This document shows, in pieces, positions 3,162-51,140 of a DNA stretch of 64,000 nucleotides. The translations under genes were made by a program, and so were the position numbers. Under the pieces are notes generated by a model. That model had not been told where the DNA came from, did no database searches, and worked only from the letters and a program-made list of their open reading frames with translations. The stretch lies in the NCBI GenBank assembly GCA_016931115.1, contig JAFGFM010000088.1, positions 1-64,000 of the forward strand, in the 5' to 3' direction. The number at the start of each line of letters is the position of its first letter. Positions within the stretch are counted from its first letter, which is position 1. Origin of the DNA: Deltaproteobacteria bacterium (GTDB taxonomy: Bacteria > Desulfobacterota > DSM-4660 > Desulfatiglandales > HGW-15).

Positions 3162-3264
3162 TAGCATAGCGCAAAGCGCATGGCGCATAGGGTCAGAAGC
3201 TTAAAAGCTTGTAATGTTACGCTATGCTCTTAGCGCTCTGCCCTATGCGCTACGCGCTTATGCG
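3162..3264. repeat. Inverted heptamer array, GCGCATA family
   Basis: The left arm (AGCATAGCGCAAAGCGCATGG) is followed after about 25 bp by its complement (CTATGCTC.. CTATGCGCTACGCGC). The unit length is 7. The array supplies the last codons of the acetyltransferase at 3250 (ending RISA) and the extra N-terminal codons in front of the exosortase start. Confidence 0.75.
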
Positions 3265-3726
3265 TCTTATCACCTTTGCCGGATTACCTGCCACAATAGT
3301 ACCTTCAGGGACATCCTTAATAACCACACTACCTGCCCCCACAATTGCCTTTTCACCTACTGTTACGCCACAAAGGATTGTTGCATTTGAGCCTATGGAT
3401 GCACCTTTTTTAATTACTGTAGGAACCACCTTCCAGTCTGCCTCGGTTTGAAGGCCGCCTGCCTCGATGGTTGCACGGGGATACCTGTCATTAATGAACA
3501 TAACACCATGACCTATAAACACATCATCCTCTATCTGCACACCTTCACATATAAATGAATGGCTCTGTATCTTGCAATTTTTACCAACATAGGCATTTTT
3601 TTGTATCTCTACAAAGGTCCCTATCTTTGTGTTATCACCAATCTCACAACCATATAAATTAATAAAGGCATTGAGGACAACATCCTTTCCGAGAACCACA
3701 TTAGGGGCTATTTTTTTTAATTCCAT
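3250..3726 (-). CDS. Hexapeptide-repeat N-acetyltransferase, WbpD/WlbB-like
   Basis: This 158-residue left-handed beta-helix protein has repeated hexapeptides (IGDNTKIGTFVEI, VGKNCKI, IEDDVFIGHGVMF, IGSNATI, IVGAGSVVIKDVP) and the terminal GNPAKVI motif of sugar acetyltransferases. With the oxidoreductase at 4294 and the aminotransferase at 5422 it forms the set that in other bacteria makes UDP-2,3-diacetamido-2,3-dideoxy-glucuronate (WbpB, WbpE, WbpD): oxidation at C3, transamination, then N-acetylation by this enzyme. It is cytoplasmic. Its stop codon lies inside a heptamer array. The exact sugar substrate is inferred from the trio. Confidence 0.75.
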   Translation of the reverse strand: MELKKIAPNVVLGKDVVLNAFINLYGCEIGDNTKIGTFVEIQKNAYVGKNCKIQSHSFICEGVQIEDDVFIGHGVMFINDRYPRATIEAGGLQTEADWKVVPTVIKKGASIGSNATILCGVTVGEKAIVGAGSVVIKDVPEGTIVAGNPAKVIRRISA

Positions 3727-3747: not shown

Positions 3748-3862
3748 AGCATAGCGCAAAGGGCATAGCGCATGGGGTAAAAGTCAGCTAAGCGCATGTT
3801 GCATAGCGCAAAGGGCATAGCGTAGTGCGCATGGGGCATAGGGCAAAGCGCATGGCGCAAAG
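3748..3862. repeat. Heptamer array, GCATAGC/GCAAAGG units (arm 1 of a bracketed gene)
   Basis: About 16 degenerate 7 nt units such as GCATAGC, GCAAAGG and GCATGGG on the plus strand. The complementary arm is at 4236-4299, with a frameshifted four-helix-bundle gene between the two. Confidence 0.8.
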
Positions 3863-3878
3863 TGAACATGTTATTAAA

Positions 3879-4234
3879 TTATTTAAGGGTATGTTGGAAA
3901 TTAGTTATCTGCCTACACAACATATCCAGTTTATCCAGTAGACTTTCCAATACCTCAAGGCTAATTAATTTTCTTCCGTTTAATATAATCAATATATTTG
4001 CATTTTCGAAGGTTGACCTTCTGGCAATATTTAAGAATTGTATAAATTCCTTATTAGAATTGGATCCTGACCCCTCCGCTATATTATTAGACATAGACAT
4101 TCCGGCAGCCCTCAACTGTTCCGTAAAACGAAACAGCTTTCTTTTTCCAGATCATCAGCGATATCAAAAAGTTGATCAGCGATTTCGATGGCCAATTGCC
4201 AAATCTTCAGATCCTGAAACCTAAATTTCGCCAT
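3879..4234 (-). pseudogene. Four-helix-bundle (23S rRNA IVP-type) protein, frameshifted
   Basis: From ATG at 4234 the frame reads MAKFRFQDLKIWQLAIEIAD and continues to DDLEKES, then goes out of frame in an A-rich run (GAAAAAGAAAGC). One frame over it resumes as LFRFTEQLRAAGMSMSNNIA, then EGSGSNSNKEFIQFLNIARR and on to the stop at 3879. The core QLRAAGMSMSNNIAEG matches the family signature (QxxRAxxSxxxNIxEG). The total of 356 nt is one base short of a 118-residue gene, so a single deletion explains it. A second copy at 11936 is intact and a third is fused to trpF. It is bracketed by complementary heptamer arrays. Confidence 0.8.
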
Positions 4235-4235
4235 G

Positions 4236-4299
4236 TCTTTATCTTTGCTCTTTGCGCTCTGCTCTTTGCGCCATGCGCTCCGCGCTCTGTGCTTTACAG
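4236..4299. repeat. Heptamer array, complementary arm of 3748-3862
   Basis: Units TTGCTCT, TTGCGCT, CTGCTCT, TTGCGCC and ATGCGCT follow at 7 nt spacing, the reverse complement of the left arm. It overlaps the stop region of the oxidoreductase at 4294. Confidence 0.8.
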
Positions 4300-5301
4300 G
4301 TCGATCGGAATCCCATTTCCGGCCAGAGATATTTTTGATGCTGCAAGTATTTTTACCACCTCAAGACCGGCCCTGCCATCTGTAAGAGGTTTTTTATTAC
4401 CTTTAATACAATCAACAAAATGCTGTGTTTCAAGGGCAAGGGCCTCAATATTATCTATCTTAGGTGCCCACATATCACCAACCCTGTACTGCACCTGCAT
4501 ATTATAGATATCTTCCTTTGTCTTAAGCATCTCAACACCCTTGTCATAAACCTTTATCTTTTCACTGGGTTCATTGTCATCGTAAAGAATCATCTTGTTA
4601 CTGCCGCCAATCAGGGTCTGGCGTATCTTTACAGGTGATACCCAGCTGACATTTATATGTGCAATAATATTATTTTCCATGTAAATAGTAAGAAGGGCCT
4701 TGGGTATAACCTCTTTACCATAATAGTGTGAACCGGTTGCAGATACTGTCAGTTTTTTATATGGCATAAAATAATCCATAATGGATATATCATGGGGGGC
4801 TAAATCCCAGATAACATCAACATCTTTCTGAAAAAGCCCGAGGTTAACACGGGTGGAATCATAATAAATCATATCACCCAGTTCACCTTTATCTATAAGG
4901 TCTTTGATCTTTCTCACAGCACCAGTATATATAAAGGTGTGATCAACAATCAGTACCTTGCCTTTCTTTTCTGCCATTTCAATAAGAATTTCGCCCTGCT
5001 CTACTTTCTCTGTCATGGGTTTTTCAAGCCATACATGCTTACCGGACTCAAAAGCCTTTTTTGCAAGCTCAAAGTGAGTAGACACAGGCGTAGCGATTGC
5101 TATAGCATCAATCGAAGTGTCATTAAAGAGGCTAGCTGTCTCATTCAGAAGTTTTGCATGAGGGTGATTTCTACCAGCAGCTTTCAATCTGTCAGGGGAA
5201 AAATCGCAAATTGCAGCCAGCTTCATCTCAGGATTGCTGCTGAAATTCCTGGCAAGATTGGGTCCCCAATATCCATATCCAATTAGTCCTATTTGTATCA
5301 T
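4294..5301 (-). CDS. Gfo/Idh/MocA-family sugar-nucleotide oxidoreductase, WbpB/WlbA-like
   Basis: This 335-residue NAD-dependent dehydrogenase has the N-terminal Rossmann motif IGLIGYGYWGPNLARNF, the cofactor-binding EKP motif in HVWLEKPMTEK, and the catalytic region DLAPHDISIMDYF. Length is normal. In the WbpB pathway the enzyme oxidises the C3 hydroxyl of UDP-GlcNAcA, providing the 3-keto substrate for the PLP aminotransferase encoded just upstream at 5422. It is separated from that gene by a heptamer array and probably co-transcribed. Cytoplasmic. Confidence 0.8.
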   Translation of the reverse strand: MIQIGLIGYGYWGPNLARNFSSNPEMKLAAICDFSPDRLKAAGRNHPHAKLLNETASLFNDTSIDAIAIATPVSTHFELAKKAFESGKHVWLEKPMTEKVEQGEILIEMAEKKGKVLIVDHTFIYTGAVRKIKDLIDKGELGDMIYYDSTRVNLGLFQKDVDVIWDLAPHDISIMDYFMPYKKLTVSATGSHYYGKEVIPKALLTIYMENNIIAHINVSWVSPVKIRQTLIGGSNKMILYDDNEPSEKIKVYDKGVEMLKTKEDIYNMQVQYRVGDMWAPKIDNIEALALETQHFVDCIKGNKKPLTDGRAGLEVVKILAASKISLAGNGIPIDL

Positions 5302-11850: not shown

Positions 11851-11861
11851 GTCATTAGCTA

Positions 11862-11935
11862 TTTAGGCTGTAGGCTATAGGCTTAAAAAATTGAGCCTTA
11901 TAGACTACAGGCTACAGCCTATAGCCTTCTAGATG
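11862..11935. repeat. Inverted heptamer array, AGCCTATA family
   Basis: AGGCTGTAGGCTATAGGC is followed by the complement ACTACAGGCTACAGCCTATAG; period 7. It lies immediately downstream of the four-helix-bundle gene at 11936. Confidence 0.8.
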
Positions 11936-12299: not shown

Positions 12300-12376
12300 G
12301 TTTCCTCAAATTTAGTCTATAGTCTATAGTCTATAGACTAAAGACTAAAAGCTAACGCCTACAGCCTACAGACTAT
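12300..12376. repeat. Inverted heptamer array, TATAGTC family
   Basis: TAGTCTATAGTCTATAGTC is followed by TATAGACTAAAGACTAAAA and GCCTACA units, period 7. It lies between the four-helix-bundle gene and the barrel gene at 12373 and overlaps that gene's stop. Confidence 0.8.
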
Positions 12377-19114: not shown

Positions 19115-19132
19115 AACAGAAAATGAACGGTA

Positions 19133-19225
19133 AAATTCAAAGGGACAAGGTGCAGGGCACAAAGCACAGGGTTATAGGTATAATACTGGGAAGGTAAGCA
19201 TAAATTAGAAGACAGGAGACATTGG
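19133..19225. repeat. Heptamer array, purine-rich arm
   Basis: AAGGTGC/AGGGCAC units and then GACAGGA, GACATTG, GTCAGAG units at 7 nt spacing. The complementary arm is at 19440-19568. Confidence 0.65.
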
Positions 19226-19345
19226 TCAGAGGTCAGCATACAAAACTACTTCTCGTTTGTGGATATATATAATCCTCATATTTTCTGGTGTAATAACCAT
19301 CTTCTCTGAATCAAGCATCTTCTGAAAAGCAGGCACGAGGGGCAC
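19226..19345 (-). CDS. Possible 39-residue ORF or gene remnant between heptamer arms
   Basis: A GTG-started frame (19345) reads VPLVPAFQKMLDSEKMVITP and then ENMRIIYIHKREVV before stopping in the flanking repeat. The residue pattern is protein-like, but no family is recognised. It occupies the same kind of position between repeat arms as the four-helix-bundle genes. It may be the 3' end of a decayed gene. Intergenic 19346-19570 otherwise holds repeats only. Confidence 0.25.
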   Translation of the reverse strand: MPLVPAFQKMLDSEKMVITPENMRIIYIHKREVVLYADL

Positions 19346-19400
19346 CTAAGGTGAAGGTTGAAAGCTCAAGGTTCAAGACTGAAGGTTATAATTATAGATT
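19346..19400. repeat. Heptamer array, GTTCAAG/GCTCAAG units
   Basis: GGTTGAA, AGCTCAA, GGTTCAA, GACTGAA at 7 nt spacing; purine-rich sense. Confidence 0.6.
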
Positions 19401-19439
19401 ATGAGTAAGTAACAGGGAAAAGGGGTTTTGTTGTTTGCA

Positions 19440-19568
19440 GCTGAATTCTGACCACGGTCTTCTGACTTCTGTCTCCTACCAACTGTCTACTGACCTCTGT
19501 CTTCTGACTTCTACCTTCTGTCCCCCTCTTCCAGCCTCCAGCCTATAGTCTACAGCCTATAGCCTATT
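19440..19568. repeat. Heptamer array, GACTTCT/GTCTCCT units, pyrimidine-rich arm
   Basis: One of the clearest arrays: GACTTCT, GTCTCCT, ACCAACT, GTCTACT, GACCTCT, GTCTTCT, GACTTCT, ACCTTCT in exact 7 nt register, then GCCTATA-type units up to the stop of the gene at 19571. Confidence 0.85.
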
Positions 19569-37300: not shown

Positions 37301-37663
37301 TCATAGAAAATCCATTAACCTGGAAATAACCATTTGACAGCCCTTCAGTACATGTTCAAGGGTATCGTTATCGAGAGTGCCGATCTTCTCAAGGAGTCTT
37401 TCTTTATCCACAGTTGCTATCTGACTGACAACTGCTACGCTTGTTTTAGGCAGATTTGCAGTACCCTTCTCTAATAAAACATTGCCGGGTATCAAAGAAA
37501 GTTTTGTATTGGATGTGAGTAGAGAGACAACAGTTGTTCTGATATTGCTGCTATTCAGGATATTATTCTGGATGATTATCGCAGGCCTTTTCCCCGATGG
37601 TCCGGAATCGTTAGACGTACCAAACCTTACCCAGTATATATCACCCTGTACAGGCTTTACCAT
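37301..37663 (-). CDS. MazF/PemK-family endoribonuclease toxin
   Basis: 120 residues with the MazF signature: GDIYWVRFGTSNDSGPSGKRPAIIIQN at the N-terminus (GxxGKRPAxIxQ), a second strand region TTVVSLLTSNT and PGNVLLEKGTANLPKTSVAVV. The toxin cleaves mRNA at short sites when not neutralised. Its start overlaps the antitoxin gene by 7 nt. Confidence 0.85.
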   Translation of the reverse strand: MVKPVQGDIYWVRFGTSNDSGPSGKRPAIIIQNNILNSSNIRTTVVSLLTSNTKLSLIPGNVLLEKGTANLPKTSVAVVSQIATVDKERLLEKIGTLDNDTLEHVLKGCQMVISRLMDFL

Positions 37664-41970: not shown

Positions 41971-42044
41971 GTTATGCCCCTTTATTCTGGTTTTCATATG
42001 ATCATTTTATTAGATTTTTTATGAAATACACAGCTAGCTCAAAA

Positions 42045-42135
42045 AATAAAGAAAATAGAAAAGAGGAATGAGAAAAGAGTAAAAACCAGTTTGCCCTGTT
42101 CCCCCTTTCCTCTTTTCTATTTTCTATTTACTGCT
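42045..42135. repeat. Inverted heptamer array, GAAAATA family
   Basis: Purine arm AAAGAAAATAGAAAAGAGG and pyrimidine arm CCTTTCCTCTTTTCTATTTT separated by 30 bp. It includes the stop region of aroF. Confidence 0.8.
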
Positions 42136-42966
42136 TTCTCTATCCAATGCATTTATTTCCACCATACATTCCTGCAGTTTCCTTACCTTTTTCATCATGC
42201 TCATAAACATAGGCGGTGAAAGGCTCTGATCACCGTCACAGAGAGCCTCAGCAGGATTGCGGTGCACCTCAACCATTACGCCATCTGCGCCGGCTGCAAT
42301 TGATGCCAGACACATCCTCTCCACAAGGCTTAGTCTTCCTGTGCCATGGGAAGGGTCCACAATAACAGGCAGGTGTGACACCTCCTTTATTGAAGGCACA
42401 ATAGCAAGGTCAAGTGTATTTCTTGTATATGATTCAAATGTCCTTATACCCCTTTCGCACAGGATCACATTCGGGTTTCCCTCTGCAAGCACATATTCAG
42501 CGCAGCTGAGCCATTCGCTCAGGGTAGAAAACATGCCCCTTTTCAGAAGCACCGGTTTACCTGCCTTTCCAACCTCCTTTAAAAGTGAAAAATTCTGCAT
42601 GTTTCTTGTGCCGACCTGAAGTATATCCACATACTCGCACACCCATGATACATCGCGCGGATCAAGCACCTCTGTTACAACCGGAAGGCCTGATTCTTTA
42701 CCGGCCTTTTCAAGTATCTGAAGACCTTTAATCCCTAAGCCCTGGAATGCGTATGGAGATGTCCTGGGCTTGAATGCCCCACCCCTTAAGATATCAGCAC
42801 CCGCCTCCTTTACCCTGATTGCGGTCTCTATTGCCTGCTCTTCACTCTCAATGCTACATGGGCCTGCAATAACAGTGAACCCTTCACCGATCGTGATATC
42901 CTTAACCTTGACAAGGGTCCTTGCCTGATTCTTCACCTTTATTGTAGTAAGTTTTAGATTTTTCAT
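42124..42966 (-). CDS. aroF: DAHP synthase, type I-beta (KDPG-like)
   Basis: 280 residues: [63 protein letters not shown] and [14 protein letters not shown], the signatures of the short AroG/AroF family without the N-terminal regulatory domain. It joins PEP and erythrose-4-phosphate in the first committed step. No ACT or mutase fusion is attached, so feedback control may be absent or work through a partner; operon control by the Phe attenuator would provide an alternative. Confidence 0.9.
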
Positions 42967-50006: not shown

Positions 50007-51056
50007 ATGTTGAAAGTAAAGATATGCGGGATTACGAATTATGATGATGCAGCCATGGCAGTTAGCCTTGGCGCTGATGCACTGGGATTTATATTTGCAC
50101 CAGCGAGCCCCAGGCAAATAGAACCGGCCACAGCGGCTGATATTATAAGAAGGCTGCCGCCATTTATTAAAAGTGTGGGAGTATTTGTTAACGAAGATAT
50201 CAAAAAAATAAGAGATGTTTCTGATTATTGCGGACTTGATATTATCCAGCTTCATGGTGACGAGACACCTGAGATGTGCGAAAGCCTTATGCCCAGGACA
50301 ATAAAGGCTATCAGGGTAAAGGATGATACTGACATATCACAATTGCAGGTATACAGGGGTAAAACAAGGGCGCTTCTTTTAGATACCTATTCTGAAAAGG
50401 CGGCAGGCGGGACAGGAAAGAGGTTTAACTGGGACAGGGCCGTAGAGATCAAGAGACTTGATATCCCTGTAATACTTGCAGGCGGTCTTACACCTTCAAA
50501 TATAGAAGAGGCCATTAAAAAAGTCAGACCATACGTGGTTGATATAAACAGCGGTATTGAGAAAAGTCCGGGCATAAAAGACCATGAGCTTATGAAGGAG
50601 CTGTTTCAAAATATAGGGAAAGAGAAGATAGAAAATAGGAAACGGAATATAGGAAAGAGTAAAGAGATGTATGGACCAATCAAACATTTCACTGATATTG
50701 AGGCATGGAAACTGGCAAAAGAGCTTCGCGTAGAGCTATATAAAATAGCAAGGTTACTACCGCCCGATGAAAAATACAACCTGACTTCCCAGATGATGAG
50801 AAGTGCTGTCTCGTGCACAGCTAATATTGCTGAGGGTTATGGCCGTTTTCATTATCAGGAAAACATCCAGTTCTGTAGAATTAGTCGAGGATCCATGTAT
50901 GAAGCTCAGGATCATTTAATCACATGTCTTGATAATAATTACATTAACAAAGAAGAATATGAAAAAACAAATAATATCTCCACCAATGCTATCAAGGTAA
51001 TTGATGGGTATATTCGATACTTAAAGAATAAATCAAAAGAACAGGAGAAGCAGTAA
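50007..51056 (+). CDS. trpF: Phosphoribosylanthranilate isomerase fused to a four-helix-bundle protein
   Basis: 349 residues in one uninterrupted frame. Residues 1-203 are complete TrpF: VKICGITNYDDAAMAVSLGA, catalytic Cys7 and Asp in LLLDTYSEKAAGGTGKRFNW, VILAGGLTPSNIEEAI and VVDINSGIEKSPGIKDHELM. Residues 204-220 (GKEKIENRKRNIGKSKE) are encoded by a GAAAATA heptamer array. Residues 221-349 are a four-helix-bundle protein of the 23S rRNA intervening-sequence type. Normal TrpF ends where the array begins, so the stop codon was lost or replaced. An internal ATG at 50667 might let the second half be made alone. Confidence 0.9.
   Translation: MLKVKICGITNYDDAAMAVSLGADALGFIFAPASPRQIEPATAADIIRRLPPFIKSVGVFVNEDIKKIRDVSDYCGLDIIQLHGDETPEMCESLMPRTIKAIRVKDDTDISQLQVYRGKTRALLLDTYSEKAAGGTGKRFNWDRAVEIKRLDIPVILAGGLTPSNIEEAIKKVRPYVVDINSGIEKSPGIKDHELMKELFQNIGKEKIENRKRNIGKSKEMYGPIKHFTDIEAWKLAKELRVELYKIARLLPPDEKYNLTSQMMRSAVSCTANIAEGYGRFHYQENIQFCRISRGSMYEAQDHLITCLDNNYINKEEYEKTNNISTNAIKVIDGYIRYLKNKSKEQEKQ
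50616..50666. repeat. Heptamer array encoding the TrpF fusion linker (purine arm)
   Basis: AGGGAAA, GAGAAGA, TAGAAAA, TAGGAAA, CGGAATA, TAGGAAA, GAGTAAA in 7 nt register. It lacks a stop in the TrpF frame. The complementary arm lies at 51062-51140 on the other side of the four-helix-bundle part. Confidence 0.85.
50667..51056 (+). other. Four-helix-bundle (IVP-type) domain inside the trpF ORF
   Basis: 129 residues starting MYGPIKHFTDIEAWKLAKEL, with the family core TSQMMRSAVSCTANIAEGYG and a helical end (VIDGYIRYLKNKSKEQEK). It is related to, but clearly different from, the copies at 3879 and 11936. It could also be translated from its own ATG at 50667, which has only a weak purine-rich site. 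Confidence 0.85.
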
Positions 51057-51061
51057 AATGA

Positions 51062-51140
51062 AAACAGTAAAAGGGATAAATTTTAGTTTTGCACTATATC
51101 CTCTTTTCTCTATACTCTTTCCTCTTTCCTTTTTTCAAGG
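51062..51140. repeat. Heptamer array, pyrimidine arm (partner of 50616-50666)
   Basis: CCTCTTT, TCTCTAT, ACTCTTT, CCTCTTT, CCTTTTT at 7 nt spacing, ending just before the AAGGAG site of trpB. Confidence 0.8.

Follow-up and report, generated by a model that had tools for sequence, protein, structure and literature searches.

What is the unit when a small gene lies between two complementary repeat arrays, and do gene and arrays belong together at all? The question arises at a gene of the PF05635/TIGR02436 four-helix-bundle family in the window (the whole 64,000-nucleotide stretch of DNA analysed here). This gene lies on the minus strand, is split by one frameshift (N-terminal part at 4115-4234, the remainder at 3882-4151 in another frame) and is bracketed by mutually complementary heptamer arrays of the GCGCAAA/TTTGCGC family. 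An earlier note, made from the sequence of the window, had proposed a non-autonomous element composed of an arm, a small ORF and a complementary arm.

Four-helix genes and their complementary arms

The bracketing of the frameshifted gene was confirmed at the positions given in Table 1. As the earlier note had also claimed, the same layout was found around an intact copy, with arrays on both sides, and around the four-helix C-terminal part of a trpF fusion (50681-51056). All three four-helix genes of the window are thus armed. They sit between or inside protein genes and not in a 23S rRNA helix, and an Rfam search of the window matched no known RNA family. The frameshifted copy and both of its neighbours are encoded on the same strand. 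A further proposed example, a 39-codon four-helix remnant at 19133-19440, held up only as regards its arms, which are complementary; hmmsearch --max gave no four-helix match there at E ≤ 0.5, and we rejected the remnant for want of a profile match. The complementary arms in this part of the window (19126-19520) enclose about 250 nt; the stretch of 39 open codons within them (VPLVPAFQKMLDSEKMVITPENMRIIYIHKREVVLYADL) is not four-helix. Elsewhere in the window, 37301-37663 gave a weak MazF-like match (NF007386, 26.5 bits, below cut-off).

Table 1. Positions in the window of the armed four-helix genes, their arms and neighbours, with an ORF-less hairpin for comparison
Feature	Coordinates	Strand	Remarks
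Arm upstream of frameshifted gene (on coding strand)	4236-4299		AAAGAGC/GAGCGCA words
Frameshifted four-helix-bundle (PF05635) gene	3882-4234	-	profile match; two frames
Complementary arm downstream of frameshifted gene	3748-3862		
Upstream neighbour, oxidoreductase-type (GFO/IDH-like) gene	4294-5301	-	family from own sequence, no profile search
Downstream neighbour, hexapeptide acyltransferase-like gene	3250-3726	-	family from own sequence, no profile search
Arm downstream of intact copy	11858-11935 (approximate bounds)		TATAGCC/TAGGCTG words
Intact four-helix-bundle gene P0002	11936-12298	-	120 aa
Arm upstream of intact copy	12303-12375		
trpF ORF, in-frame extension by four-helix domain	50007-51056	+	domain at residues about 225-349
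5' arm inside trpF fusion	50616-50666		GGAAAGA words
3' arm just upstream of trpB	51092-51140		
Hairpin without an ORF, formed by heptamer arrays, between two genes (comparison)	42039-42141		

The proteins belong to the 23S rRNA intervening sequence (IVS) or 'S23' four-helix-bundle family, matching PF05635 and TIGR02436 above cut-off and the S23p fold in the PDB (2gsc, E = 7e-23). The genome holds 18 PF05635 matches, 14 of which (L001-L013 and L016) have flanking repeat arrays, each locus with a repeat word of its own. The remaining four (L014, L015, L017 and L018) form a divergent group with no arrays seen in their flanks; these four match only about positions 9-73 of the PF05635 model. Among named organisms, the nearest TrpB relatives are those of Desulfobacula and Desulfospira (78-79% amino acid identity). 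An armed copy with complementary repeats was also found in a Bacteroidales genome, so the pairing of arms and gene is not confined to this order. The cultivated Desulfospira joergensenii likewise carries a copy, whose flanks are complementary over a short length.

Arms around four-helix genes are complementary beyond chance. The comparison drew on this genome and 60 relatives (drafts), which gave 98 non-redundant loci, 93 of them usable; the fetched loci are the better-scoring members of the family. At each locus we compared the 200 nt upstream with the 200 nt downstream. At a local score of at least 15, inverted similarity within the same locus was present in 81% of the 93 loci, compared with 6% of cross-locus pairs and 12% of other genes (32 of 263, in a 343-kb sample of this genome); at a score of at least 18, the corresponding values were 68%, 2% and 3%. 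Direct (non-inverted) similarity between arms was found in 29% at the score of 15, against the 81% for inverted similarity. The flanks peak at a period of 7, with a mean of 20-21 matches at lag 7 in the best 35-nt window, compared with 14-16 at most of the other lags; in the interior of the ORF the value is about 14. Some protein lineages have repeats with periods of 8 and 9.

The G-rich arm comes first in 72 of the 75 loci with alignable arms. We considered whether this order proves an orientation with respect to the ORF and dropped the idea, because a G-first hairpin is G-first on both strands; being symmetric between strands, the order is a property of the hairpin and not of the direction of the ORF. 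RNA fold z-scores for the three units in the window were -6.4, -2.6 and -1.8, the latter two of which are modest, so the case for an RNA structure rests mainly on the matched arms across loci.

Most of the compared protein pairs are under purifying selection. Ka/Ks was 0.06-0.29 in most vertical and transposed pairs (saturated pairs excluded) and 0.06-0.20 in syntenic orthologues, and was about 1 in one very recent pair (L125/L128). The genes lie mostly in sense with their surroundings, the four-helix gene being co-directional with both neighbours in 59 of 75 cases (by crude gene calls), which is what dependence on host transcription would predict. No recombinase is encoded in the unit, which makes 'non-autonomous' a reasonable description.

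Occupied and empty sites across genomes

The earlier note had looked to polymorphic empty sites as the mark of an element, and such sites are present in congeneric and family-level relatives. The trpF/trpB gap measures 534 nt here and 14 nt, with no arms, in the congener G001 (TrpF and TrpB 85% and 92% identical in amino acids to those of this genome); it is 14-31 nt in many members of the order and contains arrays without a gene in G015 and an ORF-less hairpin in G073. The junction that holds the frameshifted copy is 570 nt long in this genome, compared with 17-26 nt in G023, G028 and G047 and 154 nt, with no arms, in G005; in G057 its occupant is another four-helix gene, with identity at 29 of 82 residues and a 9-nt word. 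The DegT/nadE gap is 573 nt both here and in G016, the latter with another word and gene. It measures 5 nt in G006 and 13 nt in G012, and in G001 it contains a hairpin that lacks the ORF and is built of a related word. That relatives have such ORF-less hairpins at the same junctions indicates that gene and hairpin are separable.

Three further sites differ in G001: the L008 site keeps one same-word array and no gene, the tRNA/hypB site has no arms, and the site of the intact window copy (11936) holds a half-deleted, truncated orthologue with same-word arms. Some empty sites could therefore be deletions of an ancestral unit, such as the truncated orthologue and the L008 site with its one arm. 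The L010 unit is retained in both congeners. The L016 site is also occupied in both, by genes that share 30 of 51 residues and have different words. At L010, an insert of about 250 nt with GTCATTCCCGCG palindromes (392-645) is absent at the same place in G001, and represents a separate polymorphic REP-like element.

Arms differ between lineages and are alike only among related proteins: arm words are shared only between loci whose proteins are above about 50-60% identical. Among non-syntenic pairs, a third share arm sequence at 60-75% protein identity, and at most 2% do so below 50%; the overall rank correlation between arm and protein similarity is weak (0.06, within permutation range). This tracking of close protein relatedness suggests that the arms move with the gene and then change quickly, the two arms together. 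Related copies also cross families, with L046 and L145, from different families, having 398 nt in common at 90.5% identity.

No terminal sequence is common across lineages, and ordinary copies showed no target-site duplication. In a scan of 79 loci for matches beyond the arms, shared flanking stretches of at least 7 nt were found in 6% (1.5% expected) and of at least 8 nt in 4% (0.4% expected); this is near chance level, and a general target-site duplication was rejected. Two sub-lineages look like units riding in MITE-like units. In G013, at least seven related copies, with a relative in G049, are embedded in a larger unit whose terminal repeats are imperfect, and two of the copies have 8-9 bp duplications, judged by eye. 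In G045, L145 has GTAACTAC ends and an 8-bp duplication (AAGCAGAT), and L148 has a 9-nt flanking direct repeat.

We also considered that the words derive from the target site, as suggested by pglX of G072 (CAGGGAGCAGGGG) and by the L008, nadE and trpF sites. We did not keep this as the main model: related ORFs take their arms with them, and a clear array is lacking at the empty trpF and DUF1156-like sites. Judged by sequence, an array at a target site would look the same whether it is the remnant of a unit or the seed of one.

Units inside protein genes

Units were also found within three methylase genes, which we take to be pglX-type, DUF1156-like and Eco57I-like on the basis of recognised sequence motifs rather than a profile search. 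The pglX-type gene of this genome (G000) is interrupted between MEYYIRPDTSG and SEEDFLRI; the uninterrupted pglX of G072 reads MEYYIRPDASGSRGEETFIRI at the insertion point, and the homologues in G450, G170 and G337 are also uninterrupted. The DUF1156-like gene holds a unit in G025 and is uninterrupted in eight genomes at 80-92% amino acid identity. In the Eco57I-like gene of G057 the unit lies just before motif I, as it does in pglX.

All three methylase insertions leave the +2 frame, counted from the four-helix ORF, open across the unit; in the 75-unit set, this frame is open only in the G057 copy. In G025 and G057, the open frame is the host gene's own, and in pglX the four-helix frame carries the upstream half of the host gene and the open frame the downstream half. 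Because a change in the number of heptamers in pglX shifts the frame, phase switching of this gene by heptamer number is possible.

Translated repeats were also observed at two loci of G057. At L120 (contig C42, reverse-complement frame 1), the same methylase ORF contains a second heptamer array (HSPLATRRSPSSRHSPLATGNSPSSHNSPLTTGHWPF), which is translated in frame and immediately precedes the NPPW motif, with no four-helix gene there. At L073 (contig C5), a 9-nt repeat that is itself translated (PNKPNKLNK...) links a four-helix domain, in frame, with a hexapeptide acyltransferase.

Relation to known elements and rival explanations

In 23S rRNA, the termini of an IVS are complementary, the S23p ORF lies in the loop between them, and the IVS is excised by RNase III; in the Coxiella rRNA IVS, tandem GACAGAT heptamers, variable in number between strains, lie between the Shine-Dalgarno region and the ORF (PMC4990558). 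Known for more than 25 years as rRNA oddities, IVSs are of unclear origin, as is the function of S23 (PMC4990558). The units described here resemble the IVSs of Coxiella burnetii, Leptospira and others in their protein family, an ORF between complementary ends, the lack of a recombinase, a scattered distribution and, in the case of Coxiella, tandem heptamers (PMC4990558). They differ in lying in mRNA-coding operons or inside genes rather than in rRNA, in being many per genome with a word for each locus, and in encoding proteins under purifying selection, whereas the Coxiella S23p is decaying. We consider the feature to be, with a probability of roughly 60%, a small mobile unit, about 450-600 bp in length, that corresponds outside ribosomal RNA to the 23S rRNA IVS.

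In the mechanism that we propose, two complementary arrays of a locus-specific 7-nt (sometimes 6-, 8- or 9-nt) repeat, G-rich arm first, flank one S23-family gene. The unit would be transcribed in sense with its host operon or gene, and the arms would pair to place the ORF in a hairpin loop. The hairpin RNA may then be processed, probably by RNase III as in rRNA, such that host transcripts tolerate the unit. The protein might bind its own hairpin or repeat, nucleic-acid binding being plausible from its homology to Avd of diversity-generating retroelements (DGRs), and might be needed either for the spread of the unit or for its tolerance by the host transcript. Repeat slippage together with copying between arms could keep the arms matched as words turn over, and movement would probably depend on enzymes of the host or of other elements, because the unit encodes no recombinase.

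There is also a broader reading, which we regard as less likely than not. The repeat hairpins would have as sequence-specific partners the S23/IVP proteins that they carry, and a mobile protein-RNA element would place a hairpin and its own binder into host transcripts. Both arms would be kept matched while the word changes, and the element would persist because the host mRNA needs the protein to survive the hairpin. The 23S rRNA IVSs would be just one landing site, and units in methylase genes would keep a second frame open so that the host gene stays readable.

A literature search on the pairing of repeats with four-helix genes found no description of such arms outside rRNA. An element known mainly from rRNA may be widespread in ordinary genes. 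If it is a common mobile unit of ordinary operons, with its own repeat word at each locus, a protein under purifying selection and congeners that differ by clean empty sites, then the origin of IVSs and the role of S23 become testable. It might also explain some locus-specific heptamer arrays and the four-helix 'suffix' fusions of environmental genomes, and be a source of phase-variable insertions in methylase genes.

The arms might instead be intergenic heptamer microsatellites born of slippage, where four-helix genes happened to land and template switching at hairpins made the flanks alike. Gene-less arrays are indeed abundant: a 343-kb sample of this genome holds 45 lag-7 arrays (compared with 1-6 at other lags tested), 37 of them intergenic. 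Extrapolated to the genome, the 45 arrays become several hundred, compared with 18 PF05635 genes, and same-word arrays without a gene occur in related strains at the L008 and nadE sites. Heptamer arrays are also known elsewhere without such genes: those of cyanobacteria (STRs) and Beggiatoaceae (TAACTGA; PMC4679880) are likewise 7-nt, intergenic, near genes and present in hundreds per genome, but they are single arrays of shared words without a gene, whereas here matched inverted arms flank one gene family. On the frequency of arms without a gene, a point raised in the earlier note, gene-less arrays are far commoner, but they are mostly single; most solo arrays have no complementary partner, and complementary pairs are concentrated on the four-helix family (81% against 12% at other genes). 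In the methylases and trpF, moreover, the arms arrive with the gene, relatives having no array or at most an array-like stretch, and related genes with related arms occur at unrelated sites. We consider a microsatellite origin unlikely.

A MITE or IS-derived non-autonomous transposon, mobilized in trans by a DDE or similar transposase and carrying the four-helix gene as cargo, would account for a short unit with inverted ends and no transposase, and for the terminal repeats and duplications of the G013 copies, L145 and L148. Ordinary copies have neither conserved ends nor duplications, their matches beyond the arms being near chance in 79 loci, and no terminal sequence is shared across lineages that have a word for each locus; the gene carried is, moreover, under purifying selection. 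We judge this explanation improbable. In the earlier note's proposal, the arm-ORF-arm unit and its movement are thus supported by empty sites, gene insertions and cross-family copies, whereas its status as a transposon is not, as duplications are absent from ordinary copies and the layout fits the 23S rRNA IVS better. Less probable still is that there is no element and that the host retains, at particular operons, a resident regulatory gene equipped with an attenuator-like hairpin of its own. Such a gene would be consistent with the purifying selection in syntenic orthologues, the retention of L010 in both congeners and co-direction with host operons, but the hosts are unrelated (trpF, a recA neighbour, nadE, pglX and secretion genes), related copies cross families, and units are inserted in coding genes that have uninterrupted homologues. 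The frameshift in the 3882-4234 copy and the truncation of the 11936 orthologue in G001 also argue against a gene kept by its host.

The Avd proteins of DGRs have a homologous four-helix-bundle fold (PMC10053308), and the Avd profile NF033474 gave a match at E = 3.2e-6, below cut-off. Unlike in DGRs, no template or variable repeat is visible beside the units shown. The genome has three reverse transcriptase matches on contigs C39 and C133, neither of which holds a listed PF05635 gene, and the DGR feature of a reverse transcriptase gene next to Avd is absent at the listed units. In Maledivibacter halophilus, three loci (L317, L322 and L324) have identical-scoring PF05635 matches without arms, followed by what appears by eye to be template-repeat-like sequence.
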